A stretch of DNA of 64,000 nt, taken from Coriobacteriia bacterium. GTDB lineage: Bacteria > Actinomycetota > Coriobacteriia > WRKU01 > WQUG01. Shown piece by piece: positions 31,399-48,124 of this stretch. The position numbers and the translations under genes are program-made. Below the pieces are notes generated by a model that saw only the letters and a list, made by a program, of their open reading frames with translations, had not been told where the DNA came from and made no database searches. Each line of letters begins with the position of its first letter. The stretch's first letter is position 1. The stretch covers positions 1 to 64,000 of the forward strand of contig WRFR01000006.1 in NCBI GenBank assembly GCA_009778715.1, given 5' to 3'.

Positions 31399-31929
31399 GT
31401 GTCGTTTTTTGGGATAAGCAGTTGGGAGTTCGTGATCATCGCGCTTTTTGTGTTGATTGCGTTTGGCCCCGATAAGATTCCCGAGATATTCAAGCTGTTG
31501 GGAAAAGCTGCCAAGATGTTTCGGGAGGCGAAGTCCCAGGTTGAGCAAGTGACTTCGCAGGTCATCCGCCCAGAAGATATCGAAACACTGAAATCGCTGA
31601 AGGATCCGTTGGGCACCCAGGAGTTAAAACGCAATGTTGCGACGTTGCTCGACCCCCTGAAAGAGACAACGGCGCCGCTGCGGGAAGCTCGTTCTGCGAC
31701 AGCTGATGCTTCAAGCATCTGGTCTTCCTTGTCCAACCCTGCCACCTCAGATACTCCGGCCGATCCGGCTCAGCCTGCTGACGGCGCTCAGCCGAAGGCG
31801 CAAGCCGAGAAGAAGCCTGCTGGCACAGATTCATCGAAACCTGAAAAGCCGGCCGGTATAGGCTCCATCAAACCTGAAGAATCTGCCGACAAAAAGGCCG
31901 AGGAGGTACGCGATGCCGATCCAAGCTAA
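31399..31929 (+). CDS. Twin-arginine translocase subunit, TatA/TatB family (TatB-like)
   Basis: The GTG at 31399 follows AAGGG, giving 176 residues. The N-terminus has ISSWEFVIIALFVLIAFGPDKIPE; the FGPxK(I/L)PE hinge is more like TatB than TatA. An amphipathic helix (LLGKAAKMFREAKSQVEQV) and a long Pro/Ala/Lys-rich tail follow. It forms the translocase with TatC, whose start overlaps this gene by 17 bases. The pair would export folded cofactor-bearing proteins with RR signals. Confidence 0.9.
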   Translation: MSFFGISSWEFVIIALFVLIAFGPDKIPEIFKLLGKAAKMFREAKSQVEQVTSQVIRPEDIETLKSLKDPLGTQELKRNVATLLDPLKETTAPLREARSATADASSIWSSLSNPATSDTPADPAQPADGAQPKAQAEKKPAGTDSSKPEKPAGIGSIKPEESADKKAEEVRDADPS

Positions 31930-32830
31930 GCGCGCGCCGTTCTTCGACCATGTGGTGGAGCTGCGCAAACGCTTGACTATCTGCATTGTCGCAGTGATCG
32001 CAACTACGCTGATTTGCTATCAGCACGTCATCTATGTTTTCACGTTCAACCTGTTGTTGAAGCCATTGCATCCGTACCTGCCGAACAACGGTCACGTGTT
32101 CGCGATGGGGCCTTTTGAATCGATGACGTTGCGGTTCCAGATAGCTTTTATCGCAGCGCTCGTTGTGATGAGCCCGCTCCTCTTGTATCACATTTTCGCG
32201 TTCTTCCTTCCAGCGCTCAAGAAACGTGAACGCAAGTGGCTGATTCCCACGGTCGCTGCAGCGATCCTGCTTTTTTTAGGCGGCGTCCTGTTCGCGTACT
32301 TCGTTATTATGGGCCCGGCATTCAAGTGGTTGATCGCGCAGGCGGTGGGACCGGTGCAGGTTCTGCCGGCGGCAAGCGACTATCTCTCGGGGATAACCCT
32401 GTTGCTGCTGGGCTTTGGTATCAGTTTTGAGCTTCCACTGGTGGTGTTCTACCTGATTGGGTTTGGTATCCTCAAGTATCACGCGATACGCTCGAACTGG
32501 CGTTATGTTTATGTGATCCTGTTCGTGGTCGCGGCAATCGCGACGCCGGACTGGTCTCCCTGGCCGATGCTCGGCCTGACTGCGGCGCTCATTATACTTT
32601 ATGAGACAAGTCTGTTTATGACACGCCGTGTGTTTTATAGGCGCATCTGGGGACAGGAAGTCGACGCCTGGGAGGACTTCCAGTTAGAGTATGATCCGGA
32701 CAACGACGACGTAGTCTATCAAGCCAAGTATAAGCGGCTTAAGAAGCTCGGAGAGCGCGCAGCTAAGAAGCTCGCTGACCTTCCTGAAAAGCCGGATGAC
32801 GATGATGACGACGAAGAAGAGGACATCTAG
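31913..32830 (+). CDS. tatC: Sec-independent protein translocase TatC
   Basis: A 305-residue protein with start ATG after GGAGG. The N-terminus FFDHVVELRKRLTI is the RR-signal binding region. Six membrane helices follow, with FAMGPFESMTLRFQIAF and GISFELPLVVFYLIGFGILKY as typical segments. The C-terminal ~60 residues form an unusual charged tail ending DDDDDDEEEDI. It is the core of the Tat translocon in the cytoplasmic membrane. Confidence 0.95.
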   Translation: MPIQAKRAPFFDHVVELRKRLTICIVAVIATTLICYQHVIYVFTFNLLLKPLHPYLPNNGHVFAMGPFESMTLRFQIAFIAALVVMSPLLLYHIFAFFLPALKKRERKWLIPTVAAAILLFLGGVLFAYFVIMGPAFKWLIAQAVGPVQVLPAASDYLSGITLLLLGFGISFELPLVVFYLIGFGILKYHAIRSNWRYVYVILFVVAAIATPDWSPWPMLGLTAALIILYETSLFMTRRVFYRRIWGQEVDAWEDFQLEYDPDNDDVVYQAKYKRLKKLGERAAKKLADLPEKPDDDDDDEEEDI

Positions 32831-33180: not shown

Positions 33181-33237
33181 GTGACAAGGGGTCAGGTACT
33201 TTGTCACGTAGTGACTAAGCACCTGACCCCTTGTCAC
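33181..33237. repeat. Nested palindromic repeat element, intergenic copy
   Basis: A 57-base imperfect palindrome fills most of the hypA-hypB gap. The outer 17 bases, GTGACAAGGGGTCAGGT at 33181-33197, pair perfectly with 33221-33237. The inner part, TTTGTCAC/GTGACTAA around GTA, pairs imperfectly. Each arm also has TGACAA and TTGTCA near its ends, so each arm is itself a palindrome. The same element occurs at 37488 (one arm) and 45475 (perfect copy). Confidence 0.9.
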
Positions 33238-33258: not shown

Positions 33259-33927
33259 ATGGCTCATCTGGACCTGGAAAAACCGCTGCTGGAGCGCAAC
33301 GACCGGCTTGCCGCAGAAAACAAGAAACTCACAGACGACGCGGGCGTGTTCATGGTCGATTTGATGGCGAGCCCAGGCGCTGGCAAGACCTCGACGATAC
33401 TTGCGACGATCGAGGCGTTGCGTGAGAGCTATCGCATCGCGGTCATTGAAGGTGACATTGCCTCTGACGTTGACTCGCAAACGATCAAGTCCAAGGGCAT
33501 CACAGCGGTACAGATCAATACCGGCGGCGCCTGTCACCTGGAAAGCGACATGATCGCGCGCGCCCTTGGCGTGCTTGACGTCGAGGCGCTCGATCTGATC
33601 ATCATCGAGAACGTCGGCAACTTGGTCTGCCCGACCGATTTCTACCTGGGTGAGGATGCGAAAGTCATGATACTTTCCGTGCCTGAGGGTGATGATAAGC
33701 CGCTCAAATATCCGGGCATCTTCCAGATCTCAGATGCGATTATCTTGAACAAAGTTGACACGACGCCGGTTTTCGACTTTGATAGAGAAGCGTTTCTTTC
33801 ATCGGTGCAGGGGCTGAACCCCACAGCGCCGGTCTTTGAGATCGCAGCGACCACCGGCCAGGGTGTCGAGTCCTGGATCGATTGGTTGACCGCGCGCGTC
33901 GATAAGAAGAAGAAACCTTTGCGGTAA
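33259..33927 (+). CDS. hypB: Hydrogenase nickel incorporation GTPase HypB
   Basis: A 222-residue P-loop GTPase. Motifs are Walker A SPGAGKTS, VIEGDIASDVD, the metal-site segment GGACHLE, IIENVGNLVCP, and NKVDTT for guanine recognition. It lacks the His-rich N-terminal nickel store found in some HypB proteins. With HypA it loads nickel into hydrogenase or similar enzymes. The palindromic element just upstream could affect its expression. Confidence 0.95.
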   Translation: MAHLDLEKPLLERNDRLAAENKKLTDDAGVFMVDLMASPGAGKTSTILATIEALRESYRIAVIEGDIASDVDSQTIKSKGITAVQINTGGACHLESDMIARALGVLDVEALDLIIIENVGNLVCPTDFYLGEDAKVMILSVPEGDDKPLKYPGIFQISDAIILNKVDTTPVFDFDREAFLSSVQGLNPTAPVFEIAATTGQGVESWIDWLTARVDKKKKPLR

Positions 33928-36541: not shown

Positions 36542-37480
36542 ATGAGCAGGACATCATCCAAGGTTACGATCGTCGGCGCCGGCTTTGTGGGCTCGACTGC
36601 CGCGCTGCGCTGTGCGCAGAAGGGTATCGACGAGGTCGTGCTGATCGATGTGGCCGGCGGTATTGCACGGGGCAAAGCGCTCGACATGCGCCAGATGCGC
36701 GCGATCGACCAGTTTGAGTCGTGCGTAACGGGCACTGATGACTATGCAGAAACAGCGGGCTCTGACATTGTGGTCATCACGGCAGGCATCGCCCGCAAAC
36801 CGGGCATGCTGCGTGAAGAGCTGGTCTCCATCAACGGCGGCGTAGTCTCTGAGGTTATCGAGCGCGCCCGTGAGGCGTCTCCTGACGCGCTGTTCATGTG
36901 CGTGACCAATCCGCTTGATGTGATGACCTATCTGGCGCAGAAAAGGTCAGGCATCGCGCCAGAGCGCCTTTTTGGCATGGGTGGCGTGTTGGACAGCGCG
37001 CGCTTTGTCGCAAGCATCGCGGCGGAGCTTGATGTAGCGCTGGGCGAGGTCGACGGCCTGGTGATCGGCGCGCATGGCGAGGGCATGGTGCCCCTGATCG
37101 ACGAGGCGCGGGTGAGCGGTCGGCTGCTTCGTGAGGCAGCGACGCCCGCACAGATCGAGTCTATCGTTGAGCATACGGTAAACGGTGGCGCCGAGATCGT
37201 GAACTTCCTGCAGACAGGATCTGCCTACTTCGCGCCAGGCGCGGCGATCGCTCATATGGTCGAGGCTTGCCTGAAGAACTCAGGCGAGCTGATGTCGGTC
37301 TGCGCGTACCTGGATGGCCCCTATGGCCAGCATGACCTGTACATGAATGTGCCGGTTCGCCTGGGGCACGGCGGAGTGCGCGAGATCGTTGAGCTGGATA
37401 TCAGCGCGGAGGAGCGCGCAGCGCTTGACGCCTCAGGCGCCAGCATAGCAACCCTGTTAACTGAGGCTGGCCTGCGCTGA
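36542..37480 (+). CDS. mdh: Malate dehydrogenase (LDH-like family)
   Basis: A 312-residue protein with the NAD motif VTIVGAGFVGSTAALR, VLIDVAGG, ITAGIARKPGMLREEL (active-site Arg residues), CVTNPLDVMTYL and the catalytic His in VIGAHGEGMVPL. It interconverts malate and oxaloacetate. The next gene, fumarase alpha, starts on the last base of this stop codon, so the two steps malate-fumarate are linked. Confidence 0.95.
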   Translation: MSRTSSKVTIVGAGFVGSTAALRCAQKGIDEVVLIDVAGGIARGKALDMRQMRAIDQFESCVTGTDDYAETAGSDIVVITAGIARKPGMLREELVSINGGVVSEVIERAREASPDALFMCVTNPLDVMTYLAQKRSGIAPERLFGMGGVLDSARFVASIAAELDVALGEVDGLVIGAHGEGMVPLIDEARVSGRLLREAATPAQIESIVEHTVNGGAEIVNFLQTGSAYFAPGAAIAHMVEACLKNSGELMSVCAYLDGPYGQHDLYMNVPVRLGHGGVREIVELDISAEERAALDASGASIATLLTEAGLR

Positions 37481-38355
37481 TGGCACGTGACAAAGTACCT
37501 GACCCTTTGTCATATCTTCAGGCAACTGACATCGCAACGCGCGCCGCGGAGCTGCTGACCCAAGCGGCGACCCAGCTGCGCCCAGATGTGCGCGGCGCAC
37601 TGACTGCTGCCCTGGCGCGCGAGCGCACGGAGCGCGGTCGCGCGGTGCTGAAGGCACTGCTGGATAACGACGAGATCGCGCGACGTGACGGGGTACCGAT
37701 CTGCCAGGATACGGGCACCACGTGGATCCGCCTTGAGCTGGCGGCAGGGAACTACGTTGCCGGAGACTTACAAGCAGCCTGCGACACATCCTGCGGCGAG
37801 GCCAGCCAACGCGCAGGCCTGCGCAACTCGCTCGTCTTCGATGCGTACGGCGATCGGCGCAATACCCAGACGAACACCCCGGTCTTCATCGATCTGGTGC
37901 AGACCACCGCGGAAGTGACCTGCCTGCACGTCATGCTGAAAGGCGCCGGTAGCGACAACGCCTCGCGTATCGTCATGCTCGACCCGGATTCCACGGACGA
38001 TGACATCGAGGCAGCAGTGCTGGCAGCAGTCAGGGAGAAAGCCTCGATGGCCTGCCCGCCGCTGATTATCGGCATCGGCATCGGGGGGACTTTTGACACG
38101 GTGGGCAAGCTGAGCAAACGCGCCCTGCTGCGCCCGCTGACCGCTGCGCCGTCCGAGCCCCGCGTCGCGGCGCTTCAGGAGCGCCTGTTGGCGGCGGTCA
38201 ACGCGACCGGCATCGGTCCGGCCGCACTCGGCGGCGACACGACCGCGCTGGCCGTCCAGATCCAGACGGCCCCCTGCCACATTGCGGCCAAGCCGCTCGC
38301 GATCAACCTCTGCTGCAACGCTCTGCGCTCCCAGACGATATCTTTTTCCGCCTAA
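37480..38355 (+). CDS. Class I fumarate hydratase, alpha subunit, with N-terminus partly encoded by a repeat element
   Basis: A 291-residue protein with the Fe-S ligand motif VPICQDTGTTWIRLE and later cysteines in MACPPLIIGIGIGGT and NLCCNALR. The family hydrates fumarate to malate with a [4Fe-4S] cluster. The ATG at 37480 overlaps the mdh stop (TGATG). Codons 4-11, DKVPDPLS, are one arm of the palindromic element, so the native N-terminus was probably replaced or extended. The beta subunit is at 40059, beyond an MFS gene. The family also includes tartrate dehydratase, but mdh next door favours fumarase. Confidence 0.9.
   Translation: MARDKVPDPLSYLQATDIATRAAELLTQAATQLRPDVRGALTAALARERTERGRAVLKALLDNDEIARRDGVPICQDTGTTWIRLELAAGNYVAGDLQAACDTSCGEASQRAGLRNSLVFDAYGDRRNTQTNTPVFIDLVQTTAEVTCLHVMLKGAGSDNASRIVMLDPDSTDDDIEAAVLAAVREKASMACPPLIIGIGIGGTFDTVGKLSKRALLRPLTAAPSEPRVAALQERLLAAVNATGIGPAALGGDTTALAVQIQTAPCHIAAKPLAINLCCNALRSQTISFSA
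37488..37512. repeat. Single arm of the palindromic element inside the start of the fumarase gene
   Basis: The 25 bases match one arm of the perfect element at 45475 exactly, with core AAAGTACCTGACCCTTTG. They begin eight bases after the ATG and are translated DKVPDPLS. The other arm is absent. Confidence 0.92.
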
Positions 38356-42403: not shown

Positions 42404-43668
42404 TGACCGGAGTTCAACTCCGTTATTCAAAGACCCTCTGGTTCGATCCTGCGGGAACCACGCCTGAAGTTGACGATCTGGTCGTGGTCAAGACCAGCCG
42501 CGGTGAGGAACTGGGCCGCGTGCGCAAACCTCCTTTCGAATTGGAGGATTCGGCGTTCGAGAAAGATCTCAAGCCGGTGCTGCGTATCGCCAATGAGCGC
42601 GACCTGAACTATCAGCTGGAGCTCGGCGAGAAAGAGAAGGACGCGATGCCGGTCTTCTACGAGCTGATCGAGAAGTATGAGCTTGCCATGCGCCCGGTCG
42701 ATATCGAGTACCTGATCAGCGGCGACAAGATCGTGTTTTACTTCAGCGCTGACGAGCGCGTCGACTTCCGCGAGTTGGTCCACGAGCTGTCCTCGCGTTT
42801 CCAGTCCCGCATTGACGTGCGCCAGGTGGGCGTACGCGACGAGGCACGCATGATCGGGGGGCTGAGCCATTGTGGGGAGCAGCTCTGCTGCGCGCGCCTG
42901 GGCGGTGAGTTCATGCCGGTCTCCATCAAGATGGCAAAAGACCAGGGCCTGCCGCTTAACCCGGTCAAGATATCGGGCCTGTGCGGGCGGCTCATGTGTT
43001 GCCTGCGCTATGAAGTCGACGCCTATAACGACTTCAATGGTCGCGCGCCCCGCAAAGGCAGCTTCGTTGAGGTAAGCGATGGGACCAAGGGCAAGGTCAG
43101 TGATCTTGACGCCGTGCGCGAGCTGGTTTCGCTGAGGTTCCCACGCGAGGACATGCCTGACGAGACCATCACGGTCAAGCTCTGTGATATGAAGTGTGAG
43201 AAGAGCGGCAAGCAGTGCCATTGCACGCTTGATTCAGAAGTGCTTGAGGAGCAGCGCTTGCAGGCACAGCAGCATAACAGCGCCCTGTTGGTTGGTAACG
43301 CGCGTTTCCTGGATGCGTCAAAGCTGGTGGGCAATGCCTCTGCCTCAGGAGGCCCGCAACCGCACGGAGATGCGCAAGCGGGGTCACGCGCAGGATCGGG
43401 TACGCCAGCGCGCAAGGACGGCCAGAGCCGGCAGCGCTCAGCGCAGGGTTCCGGCGCGGGCTCAGGTTCAGGCGGCAAGGAAGGCGACAAGCGTCGCCGC
43501 CAGCGTCGCCGCCGCCCGCCCGCGGCGTCTTCAGCTTCCGACGCCTCAGCTAAAAAGGATCAGAAACCACGTACGTCGAAGCCAGGCGTTGCCTCAGGCT
43601 CCCGGCCTGCTTCCCGGCCCTCCACACCTCCGGTAGATGATCGGGTACCGCGCCGCAGGCATCGCTGA
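42394..43668 (+). CDS. ricT: PSP1-domain protein (RicT/YaaT family) with long disordered tail
   Basis: A 424-residue protein whose N-terminal 280 residues match the PSP1 family: [41 protein letters not shown] and [16 protein letters not shown]. The paired Cys clusters bind an Fe-S cluster with partners in Bacillus, where the complex affects RNA processing. The last ~130 residues are Gly/Ser/Arg/Pro-rich ([17 protein letters not shown]) and likely disordered. It overlaps holB by ten bases. Confidence 0.9.
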
Positions 43669-43681
43669 ACAAGGAGTCTTT

Positions 43682-46600
43682 GTGGCACATCCCGCGCTGC
43701 ATATCGGTATCGATGTCGGTTCGACGACCGTCAAGCTCGCCATACTTGACGGGGAGCGTAACTGCCTCTATGCGCGCTATGAGCGCCATCATGCCGACAT
43801 CCGCCAGACGATCCGCGAGATCATCGCAGACGCGGCCCAGAAGTTCCCGGGCGTCGAGATGACGACGATGATCACGGGATCGGGCGGGCTGCTTTTGGCA
43901 AACTGGCTTGAGGTGGCCTTCGTGCAGGAGGTCATCGCAAGCAAGGTGGCCGTCGAGACCTTCATTCCGCAGACCGACGTCGCCATCGAGCTGGGCGGCG
44001 AGGACGCCAAGATCATCTACTTTGACGCCGGCATCGAACAACGCATGAACGGCACCTGCGCGGGTGGCACGGGAGCGTTTATTGATCAAATGGCGACGCT
44101 GCTACATACCGACGCTGGCGGGCTTGATACCCTGGCCGAGGGATTCAAGGTGCTCTATCCGATCGCCTCGCGTTGCGGGGTGTTCGCAAAATCTGATGTT
44201 CAGCCGCTGCTTAACGAGGGGGCGCGCCGTGAGGACGTCGCGGCCTCGATCTTCCAGTCGGTCGTTAACCAGACCATCGCGGGGCTTGCCTGTGGCCGCC
44301 CGATCCGGGGCCATGTGGCGTTTTTGGGCGGGCCGCTCCAGTACCTGCCGCAACTGCGCCAGCGCTTCATCGAGACCCTGGGTCTTGACGACGATCACGT
44401 TATCGCGCCGGCCGACGCCCACCTCTTTGTGGCCCGTGGGGCGGCGCTTGCCGCGCTGCGTCCGGGGGTCCAGGAGGCAACGGTCGTTACTCTTGAGGAG
44501 ATACTGGCGCGCCTCGATGAGCTGGGCTCGACGCAGGCCTCCGAGGTCCTGCGCCTCGATCCCCTCTTTGCTTCGCCGGAGGACTACGCGGCGTTCTGTG
44601 AGCGCCATGACCAGGCACGGGTCGCGCGCGCTGTGTTCGCGGACCATACCGGTCCGGTCTATATCGGCATCGACGCGGGCTCGACCACGCTTAAGGCGGT
44701 CGTCATCGACGAGGACGGCGCCATCCTTGACAGCTGGTATGGCAACAATCGCGGCGATGTGATCAACACGGCGCGCGAGGTCCTTGCCGGTTTCTACGAG
44801 CATATGCCGCCGGGCGCTTATGTGGCGCAGGCGACCGTGACCGGCTACGGGGAAGGCCTGCTCAAGGAAGCGTTATGCGCTGACCTTGGTGAGGTCGAGA
44901 CCGTGGCCCATCTGCGCGGCGCTGAAGAATTGGTCGAAGGCGTCGATTTCATCTTAGACATCGGCGGGCAGGACATGAAGTGCCTGCAGGTCAAGGACAC
45001 GGTTATCGAGCACATCATGCTCAACGAGGCCTGCAGCTCGGGATGCGGATCGTTCATCGAGACCTTCGCGACCTCGCTCAACATGAAGATCGAAGACTTC
45101 GCGCAGGCGGCGCTTTTCGCCGAGGCCCCGGTCGACCTGGGCTCGCGCTGCACGGTGTTCATGAACTCACGGGTCAAGCAGGCGCAGAAAGAAGGCGCCA
45201 CGCCCGGAGACATCAGCGCGGGGCTCTCCTACTCGGTCATCAAGAACGCGCTTTTCAAGGTCATCAAGATCCGCGATACGCGCGAGATGGGGGAGCGCAT
45301 CGTCGTGCAGGGCGGCACGTTTTTAAACGACGCCGTGCTGCGCGCGTTCGAGATCCTGACGGGACGCGAAGTCGTTCGCCCCGATATCGCCGGCCTGATG
45401 GGCTGCTATGGCGCGGCGCTTCTGGCGCGCGACGCCGCCCGCGAAGCGGCGACGCTGCTGGCTGGCAGCGGCGCTGACAAAGGGTCAGGTACTTTGTCAT
45501 GCGCGCATGACAAAGTACCTGACCCTTTGTCATCTGCGGTCACTTCCACGTTGCTCTCTGCTCAGGAGCTGGCGGACCTGACCGTGTCGCATCGCACGAC
45601 GCACTGCAAGAAGTGCGCCAACCAGTGCCTGCTGACCATCAACAGCTTCGGCAAGGACCCGGTGACGGGCCGGCCGCGGCATTTTATTACGGGCAACCGT
45701 TGCGAGCGGGGTGGCAGCATCGTCGGCGAGCAGGAGAAGGACCCGACGCAGGCTCCCCCGAATCTTTTCGCCTACAAGACCAAGCGGCTCTTCGACTTCG
45801 AGCCGCTGACGCGCGAAGATGCGCCGCGCGGGACCGTCGGCATTCCACGGGCGCTCAACATGTACGAGAACTATCCCTTCTGGTTCACATTCTTCACAAA
45901 GCTGGGCTATCATGTTGAGCTCTCGGCGGCTTCAGACAAGTCGACGTTTGAGGCGGGCATGGAGTCGATGCCTTCAGAGTCGGTCTGCTATCCGGCCAAG
46001 CTTTCTCACGGCCACATCATGCGCCTGATAGAAACGGGCGTGGACTTCATCTTCATGCCCTGTGTGGTCTATGAGCGGATGGAAGACCCGACGGCGGGCA
46101 ACCACTACAACTGCCCGATCGTCATGAACTACTCGGAGGCGCTGCGCCTTAACATCGATGAGCTGCAGGATGGCAGCACGGTGTTTTTGAACCCCTTCGT
46201 GCCCTACGACCAGCAGGCCAAACTTGCGCGCCGCATGTACGACGTGCTGCGCGAGAACGCTGATAGGCTGCCTGACACCGCGCCGACGCTTGCTGAAGTC
46301 AAGCGCGCTACGGCGGCTGCCTGGGCAGAGGACGAGCGCTTTAAGGCTGACGTCCAGCATGCTGGCGAGGAGGCGCTGCGCTGGATCGAGGAACACGAGG
46401 GCCACGGCATTGTTTTAGCCGGGCGCCCCTATCACCTTGACCCGGAGGTCAACCACGCGATCCCGGAGCTGCTGGTCTCCTCAGGCCTGGCCGTGCTGAC
46501 CGAAGACTCGGTCTCGCACCTCAAGAAGCCCGAACGTCCCATCCGCGTCGTCGACCAGTGGATGTATCACTCGCGCCTGTTTGCCGCGGCACGCTTCGTG

Positions 46601-48124
46601 ACGATGCGCGATGACCTCGACCTGATCCAGCTCAACAGCTTTGGCTGTGGGCTCGATGCGCTCACGACCGACCAGTGCCAGGAGATCTTAGAGAAGTCAG
46701 GCAAGATCTACACCGTGCTCAAGATCGACGAAGTCAGCAATTTGGGAGCGGCGCGTATCCGCGTGCGCTCGCTGCTCGCCGCGCTGCGCAACCAGGCGGT
46801 CGAGCGCAAGCGTCTGCTGGCGCAACATCCCGGCCAGCCCACACGGGTCGCGCACAGCGCGGCCTTCCCGCGGGCGTCCTTTACCAAGGAAATGAAGCAG
46901 GCGGGCTACACGATCATCTGTCCCCAGATGGCGCCGATCCATTTCGCGCTGCTGCTGCCGCTCTTCAAGCACTATGGCTATAACGTTGAGATCCTGCCTT
47001 CGGTCGACCGCGGCGCGGTCGAGGCGGGCCTGCGCTACGTGAACAACGACATCTGCTACCCCTCGATTTTGACCTCCGGCCAGATCATGGAGGCAGTTGA
47101 TTCGGGCCACTACGACCTCAGCAAGCTCGCCGTCATCATCTCGCAGACGGGTGGGGGCTGTCGCGCGACCAATTACATCGCGCTCATCCGCAAGGCGCTG
47201 GCAGACGCCGGACATCCTGAGATACCGGTCATCTCGCTGCAGTTCCAGCCGCTGGGCGAGTCCAATCCCGGCTTCAAGCTGAGTCCTGCCATGCTGAAGA
47301 GCGCTTCCTACGCGCTGCTGCTCGGCGACTTGCTGATGCAGGGGCTCTATCGCACGCGGCCCTACGAGGCGACGCCCGGCGCGGCCGACGCCCTGCACAA
47401 GCAGTGGGAGGCGCGCCTGGCCGAGGAGCTGGCTGGCATGGGGCAGGCGGGCTACAAGCGTGCGGTCAAAGGCATCGTCCATGATTTCGACGTACTCCCG
47501 CTGGAGGGTGATCGCAGCAAGCCGCGCGTCGGCGTGGTGGGCGAGATACTCGTGAAGTATCACCCAACGGCCAACAACAACCTCGTCGAGGTCATCGAGA
47601 GCGAGGGCTGCGAGGCCGTGGTTCCCGGGCTGGTCGATTTCTTCCTCTATTCGATGAGCGGTGGCATCAACAAGCGCAATCCCGTGGGTACGCCCGCGAT
47701 CAACGAGCTGCTGATGCGCACGGCGATCAAGGCGGTTGACTGGCTGAGAAGCCCAATCGTAAAGGCTCTGGCTGCAAGCGAGCGCTTCGATCCGCCCGCG
47801 CAGATATTTACGCTGGGCACGAAGGCCTCCGAGGTCGTCTCGCTCTGCAATTCCTGCGGCGAAGGCTGGCTGCTGACGGCCGAGATGATGGAGCTGATCG
47901 AGAGCGGCACGCCCAACATCGTCTGCACGCAGCCCTTCGCGTGCCTGCCTAACCATGTGAGCGGCAAGGGTGTCATCAAGGAGCTGCGCCGCCGTTACCC
48001 GCAGTCCAACATCGTGCCCGTCGACTACGACCCGGGCGCCTCTGAGGTCAACCAGCTCAATCGGATTAAGCTGATGATCGCCGTCGCCTTCGAAAACTTC
48101 CAAAACGCGCTAGACGCCCGCTGA
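43682..48124 (+). CDS. Giant fused acyl-CoA dehydratase activase / HgdB-like protein (BadF/BadG x2, DUF2229)
   Basis: The GTG at 43682 follows AAGGAG, giving about 1480 residues; an ATG at 43637 is possible but overlaps ricT. Two activase ATPase domains occur in tandem: [18 protein letters not shown] with [11 protein letters not shown], and [18 protein letters not shown] with [10 protein letters not shown]. The two Cys sites should hold a shared [4Fe-4S] cluster. A Cys cluster ([10 protein letters not shown]) and the HgdB/DUF2229-type half follow ([37 protein letters not shown]). Relatives couple ATP hydrolysis to low-potential electron transfer, but the substrate of the fused form is not known. 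A perfect palindromic element lies in frame at the linker between the two halves. Confidence 0.88.
45475..45532. repeat. Perfect 58-bp palindromic element inserted in frame in the activase gene
   Basis: Bases 45475-45503 are the exact reverse complement of 45504-45532, with no loop. Each arm carries TGACAAAG and CTTTGTCA, so it is also a palindrome; the core is GGGTCAGGTACTTTGTCA. In the reading frame it encodes [19 protein letters not shown]. It lies exactly at the linker between the second activase domain and the CKKCANQC segment. Confidence 0.95.

Follow-up and report, generated by a model that had tools for sequence, protein, structure and literature searches.

Palindromes read in frame within proteins are mainly known from Rickettsia and Wolbachia, and a few other species provide REP cases. 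The Rickettsia palindromic elements (RPEs; Ogata 2000, 2002) are described, in the passages of two papers that cite them (PMC10969869, PMC2229807), as in-frame palindromes established in Rickettsia, with figures of 44 integrations and 19 reading frames. Intragenic REPs with GTAG or CGTC ends, and dimers of them, have been reported in ORFs of O. terrae, R. conorii, Thauera and others, in which they encode 20-30 aa (PMC3733652). The same work associates the GTAG types with RAYTs, presents a Xanthomonas recB case in which the element positions of two species approximately coincide, and warns against N-terminal misannotation of REPs. The words Coriobact and Actinobacteria are absent from that paper.

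Our analysis indicates that a termite-gut lineage of Coriobacteriia harbours in-frame palindromes at a similar scale: one species contains at least two families, and others are found in the same loops of its sister species. Small mobile DNA appears to have been written repeatedly into proteins in these bacteria, since more than 20 ordinary genes other than that of fumarase carry the palindrome.

The mdh-fumarase junction in the window and in relatives

The ORF at 37480..38355 (+ strand) of the window, i.e. the whole stretch of 64,000 nucleotides analysed, encodes a 291-residue fumarate hydratase class I alpha subunit, with matches to the Pfam Fumerase signature (PF05681, 258 bits) and to the Fe-S tartrate/fumarase alpha domain (TIGR00722). 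It follows the malate dehydrogenase gene mdh (36542..37480, + strand; NF004863, 367 bits). As the first-pass annotation of this DNA had pointed out, the two genes overlap in a TGATG motif, with the mdh TGA at 37478-37480 and the fumarase ATG at 37480-37482 (junction sequence ...CTGCGCTGATGGCACGTGACAAAGTACCTGACCCTTTGTCATATCTTCAGGCAACTGAC). Positions 37488..37512 (+ strand) correspond to a solo arm of a palindromic repeat, hereafter called family A (TGACAAAGTACCTGACCCTTTGTCA), with an 8-bp stem and a 9-nt loop. Fumarase codons 4-11 (GAC AAA GTA CCT GAC CCT TTG TCA, coding for DKVPDPLS) account for 24 of the 25 arm bases, the remaining one being the last base of codon 3. That these codons represent an exact arm of the repeat was borne out, as the same 25 bases recur at 45508-45532 and, as the reverse complement, at 45475-45499.

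Relative to the congener, the arm is part of a 33-nt in-frame insertion (37483..37515, + strand) located between the ATG and CTTCAG, in which GCACG (5 nt) precedes the 25-nt arm and TAT (3 nt) follows it. The fumarase of this congener (MAG Emb289P4bin29, L001, apparently the same genome as G002 below) is 86% identical, aligns from window residue 12 and begins with MLQATDIA, coded by ATG CTT CAG GCA ACT GAC ATC GCC (ATG followed by CTTCAGGCAACTGACATCGC; ATGCTTCAGGC). In a second relative (L052) the fumarase gene starts straight after the mdh stop, TAG g GTG CTT CAG GCC, i.e. GTG followed by CTTCAGGCC. Most Coriobacteriia relatives have abutting mdh and fumarase genes, and in the other relatives with adjacent mdh the fumarase start is found -1 to +18 nt from the mdh stop. 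The present ATG thus occupies the ancestral position (+2 relative to the mdh stop), and because abutment is the rule in the class, we prefer an insertion after the ancestral ATG to the creation of a new start. The mdh-fumarase spacer of G002 is 136 nt long and contains a repeat with a AGGGCGCGACGACC core; as this repeat recurs at three other fetched G002 loci, the spacer looks acquired. The locus is present in one congener only, with a different spacer, so that the 8 nt flanking the 25-nt arm lack an empty-site match.

Residues 2-12 of the window fumarase were found in no relative examined, and neither of the other two genomes of the genus contains the element; repeat-free relatives sharing these residues were sought and not found. 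A conserved fumarase N-terminus was rejected, since the congener protein begins at residue 12 without them. The initial proposal that the element had made or replaced the N-terminus is therefore supported, as the residues are element-coded and absent from relatives, with the refinement that an insertion is preferred to a new start. Before residue 37, which is already inside the conserved domain, the only in-frame ATG, GTG or TTG codons are codon 1 and codon 10, a TTG within the arm. Since no start codon separates the element from the conserved domain, translation would yield an element-coded N-terminus whichever start is used. In an AlphaFold2 model, the mean pLDDT of residues 1-10 is 47, compared with 84-92 for the six ten-residue blocks that follow, consistent with a peptide that would form a short flexible tail.

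Palindromic families and the genes that carry them

Over the whole genome (1.73 Mb, 48 contigs), the family A 25-mer occurs at 74 places with at most 3 mismatches, 45 of them exact, and the arm in the fumarase gene is identical to 44 others. The reversed pattern gave 0 matches in the same genome, which excludes a chance match as the source of that arm. Our census of family A, composed of pattern matches and fetched stretches with their flanks, distinguishes 24 solo and 25 doublet sites (n=49); 23 of the 25 doublets have a spacer measuring 5 or 8 nt. Regarding the suggestion that the lone arm was a solo insertion or a deletion product, solo copies are thus ordinary and a deletion, although conceivable, is not required. 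The units end in TGAC...GTCA with variable flanks and measure 25 nt (arm), 55 and 58 nt (doublets), or 27, 57 and 60 nt with one flanking base, often complementary to its counterpart, on each side. The main base difference within the family, AAA/AAG and CCT/CCC, is synonymous on both strands.

Two further family A sites are found in the window. The full doublet at 45475..45532 (no strand assigned), with an 8-nt spacer (TGCGCGCA, 45500-45507), is in frame within the ORF at 43637..48031 (+ strand), which encodes a 2-hydroxyacyl-CoA dehydratase activase-type protein (TIGR00241, PF01869, PF09989). It covers approximately residues 613-632, in the linker that joins the activase domain (343-597) to DUF2229 (733-959). 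The doublet at 33182..33236 (no strand assigned), with a 5-nt spacer, is intergenic, between ORFs 31913-32830 and 33259-33927; its first arm (33182-33206) differs from the fumarase arm by one mismatch, and the second is decayed, with 3 mismatches. It lies 22 nt upstream of the latter ORF, which we take by eye to be hypB-like, and after the former, presumably tatC-like. The TGCGCGCA spacer is common to five family A sites and to a different G002 family (RlmN copy, L143). Two solo sites (L105 at 1513 and L106 at 1570) are hybrid palindromes, TGACAAAGTACCAGGTACTTTGTCA, with two like half-arms.

High-copy family A is confined to the window's genome among the 400 class genomes sampled, in which stray relatives with 1-2 mismatches were found in 9 other genomes only. 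Family A was not found in G001, G002 or other relatives within the family and the order, except for one 18-mer match with 2 mismatches in one family member.

Approximately 24 of 47 family A sites are in frame inside identifiable genes. Carriers supported by family signatures include aspartate kinase (LysC), 5-formyltetrahydrofolate cyclo-ligase, HemC, a GNAT-TsaD fusion (twice), a PafC/WYL regulator, DinG, a dihydrolipoamide-dehydrogenase-like protein, MetH (twice), two P-type ATPases, a FolC-like Mur ligase, an ABC ATPase, RlmN, a spermidine-synthase-like protein, CbiM/Q, AzlC and RsmI. One more carrier (L089) has no Pfam match and a G002 orthologue with 67% identity. Internal carriers were confirmed by Pfam and by alignment to congeners. 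The inserts are located between domains in the activase, CbiM/PDGLE, MetH and RlmN, and at termini in LysC, the ABC ATPase, AzlC, RsmI and fumarase. Comparison with solved homologues places the HemC insert in a variable turn, at which the homologue has a shorter stretch, and that of RlmN between two aligned segments. In RsmI (L094), as in fumarase, all possible starts upstream of the domain lie within or next to an element. The N-terminus of RsmI derives from an element both in the window's genome and in G002 (L145), where the palindrome is a different one. The CarA copy (L071) was dropped from the coding list because ATGs are found downstream of the element, which is probably in the 5' untranslated region.

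At every carrier site the frame is kept on both sides and the insert is in a stop-free phase. One of the three phases of the arm contains a TGA and two are stop-free. In the preferred phase, which is also that of the fumarase arm, a family A arm reads as T plus eight codons, giving DKGSGTLS or DKVPDPLS depending on the strand, and the 5- or 8-nt spacers hold both arms in phase. In the tested carrier set, this phase (phase 3) was found in 23 of 23 family A sites, including the probably untranslated CarA site (22 without it), and in 17 of 18 family B sites, with L090 as the exception. ORFs in the common phase had been scanned before those of the other phase, and the latter scan yielded two more family A carriers, namely a prepilin peptidase (L101) and the C-terminus of FabD (L077). 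Of the approximately 24 in-frame sites, 22 thus use one phase and 2 the other. Of the two stop-free phases, the preferred one is hydrophilic and the other hydrophobic and Cys-bearing; one exception is a membrane protease. The phase bias is strong without being absolute, and either selection or insertion chemistry might account for it.

The second family, B, TGACAAAACGGTGCCTGACCCCATTCTGTCA, reads DRMGSGTVLS..DKTVPDPILS and occurs at 50 places in the window's genome and 2 in G002, with spacers mostly of 5 or 8 nt, as in family A. Its carriers with Pfam support are UvrD, HemD, IspE, NAD kinase, CoaX, PurL, an RluD-type synthase, a PGI-like protein, an aminotransferase and PyrD, the last of which may be a case of N-terminal misannotation. 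In L159, around position 906, a family-A-like palindrome (TGACAAAGGGTCAGG ... CCTGACCCTTTGTCA) has a family B doublet nested at its centre.

The sister species G001 lacks palindromic inserts at most aligned carrier sites, thus providing near-empty sites. In G002, other in-frame palindromes are present in many of the same loops, namely in RlmN, PafC, DinG (decayed), the first TsaD site, formyltetrahydrofolate ligase, the spermidine-synthase-like protein and RsmI. They belong to families TGAGACAGGGGGACGGTTCTTCTGTCTCA (92 arm matches), TGTGTCAGGGGGACGTATAACTTGACACA and TGACAAAATTACCCCTGGGGTAATTTTGTCA. In G001 MetH (L140), a direct repeat, GGCGACAGCACCCCCGGCCCCCTGTC, occupies the position of the insert, suggesting that another element may exist in that species.

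Proposed mechanism and alternative explanations

Two Coriobacteriia genomes link such repeats with transposases. G002 encodes a 249-residue protein that matches the REP-associated tyrosine transposase (RAYT) model with 77 bits and is flanked by TGAGACACGGGGACGGTTCTTCTGTCTCA-type repeats, its own main family, and G090 encodes a 259-residue RAYT-like protein with 71 bits, both below the NCBIfam cut-off of 80 bits. The latter gene is flanked (L167, 2311-2335 and 3148-3172) by repeats with 0-2 changes from TGACAAGGTACCTGTCCCCTTGTCA, an element very close to family A. The upstream repeat of L167 (2311-2335) also provides the gene before it with its C-terminal codons (..NFVTKGQVPCHK stop). These flanked RAYT genes support a REP/RAYT assignment. 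Neither a RAYT or other Y1 transposase nor a cognate RAYT flanked by the same REP (TGACAAAG..) was found in the 48 contigs of the window's genome; as this assembly is approximately 95% complete, the gene may be missing from it or lost. By analogy, family A would have been mobilized by a RAYT in that genome as well.

We consider it likely, with a probability of roughly 0.8, that a solo copy of a REP/REPIN-like element inserted between codons 1 and 2 of the fumarase gene and is translated, and that in-frame copies survived in tolerant positions. The repeat would be a palindrome of the kind moved by RAYT (Y1/HUH) transposases, occurring alone or as inverted doublets with a 5- or 8-nt spacer. Insertion of one solo copy would have kept the overlap of the mdh stop and the ATG and added 33 nt (11 codons) in frame, and its translation, which is predicted from the reading frame, would yield the short flexible N-terminal tail. 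We infer a survival filter, such that in-frame copies in tolerant loops, linkers and termini would have passed purifying selection, leaving dozens of proteins with inserts. This reading builds on what is directly observed, namely the sequence, copy number and frame of the element, its carriers, its absence from relatives and the RAYT association in G002 and G090. No target-site duplication was seen. The bases adjoining the element are complementary in 28 of 46 cases, compared with 17.7 in shuffled pairs (P 0.0014); together with the nesting in L159, this hints at a preference for palindromic targets, which is a lead rather than a conclusion.

It is unlikely, though conceivable, that a deletion removed an older spacer and start, so that one arm of a previous doublet and a new ATG remained, in which case the N-terminus would still be element-coded. 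The 136-nt spacer of the congener and the possibility that a solo arm is half a doublet would fit such a replacement, but the two genes abut in other relatives, the congener spacer looks derived, the present ATG is at the ancestral position and solo arms make up 24 of the 49 sites. An extragenic element, with the true start downstream and the repeat as a leader or regulatory hairpin, would agree with the start of the congener protein and with the frequent misannotation of N-terminal REPs elsewhere (PMC3733652). It is nevertheless quite improbable, as the sole alternative start up to residue 37, the TTG at codon 10, is itself within the element and the RNA fold at the fumarase start is no stronger than that of shuffled sequences (z -0.56), on which ground we rejected an RNA hairpin as a control element.

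In mitochondria, ribosomes bypass the inserts known as byp elements. Bypassing by ribosomes or removal from the RNA might be envisaged for short hairpin inserts in conserved genes, but it would need neither a kept frame nor a stop-free phase, both of which are seen at every carrier site, and we regard it as highly improbable. An assembly or binning artefact is likewise highly improbable: the assembly is in 48 contigs and incomplete, but each copy has its own unique flanks, many carriers have congener orthologues and the mdh-fumarase order is that of relatives.

Insertion of a solo copy after the ancestral ATG thus remains our preferred explanation. The occurrence of several families in one species and its sister makes it possible to test whether such inserts are spread by transposition, with a filter that retains harmless frames. 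The carriers naturally map the positions at which core enzymes tolerate insertions, and the element-derived N-termini of fumarase and RsmI are a warning for annotation. More tentatively, and with considerable doubt, successive REP-like families in the genus might be protein-coding selfish elements, whose unit lengths and synonymous difference keep a stop-free hydrophilic phase and which recolonise the same permissive loops, their niche being protein tolerance rather than intergenic space.

Comparison with known palindromic elements

Families A and B resemble RPEs, as far as the citing papers describe these, in being palindromes in frame in many unrelated conserved genes, in numbers of the same order and with a translated peptide insert, translation being predicted here. 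In contrast, RPEs are ~100-150 bp long (105-146 bp taken as the length range for membership), occur in Rickettsia and include CGTC-tagged types in R. conorii, whereas our elements have arms of 25-31 nt and units of 25-58 nt, TGAC/GTCA ends and a Coriobacteriia host.

As imperfect palindromes of 20-40 nt at high copy (25-nt arm at 74 places for family A, 31-nt arm at 50 for family B), forming inverted doublets with a short spacer (25 of the 49 family A sites) as well as solo units, and as species-specific families, they resemble REPINs (PMC3116915), and RAYTs are flanked by their own REP in a congener, G002, and by a near-identical element in a class relative, G090. However, REPs are by definition mainly extragenic, whereas approximately half of the family A copies are in genes, and no RAYT was found in the window's genome. 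The singles and dimers within ORFs recall the intragenic REPs of PMC3733652, but the present families have neither the GTAG nor the CGTC tetranucleotide end of those superfamilies, and about half of all copies are in frame in genes. Moreover, the same loops harbour elements of different families in the sister species. Although a prior description elsewhere is possible, the families, the host phylum, the share of copies in genes and this reuse of loops by different families are new as far as the open-licence literature was searched.
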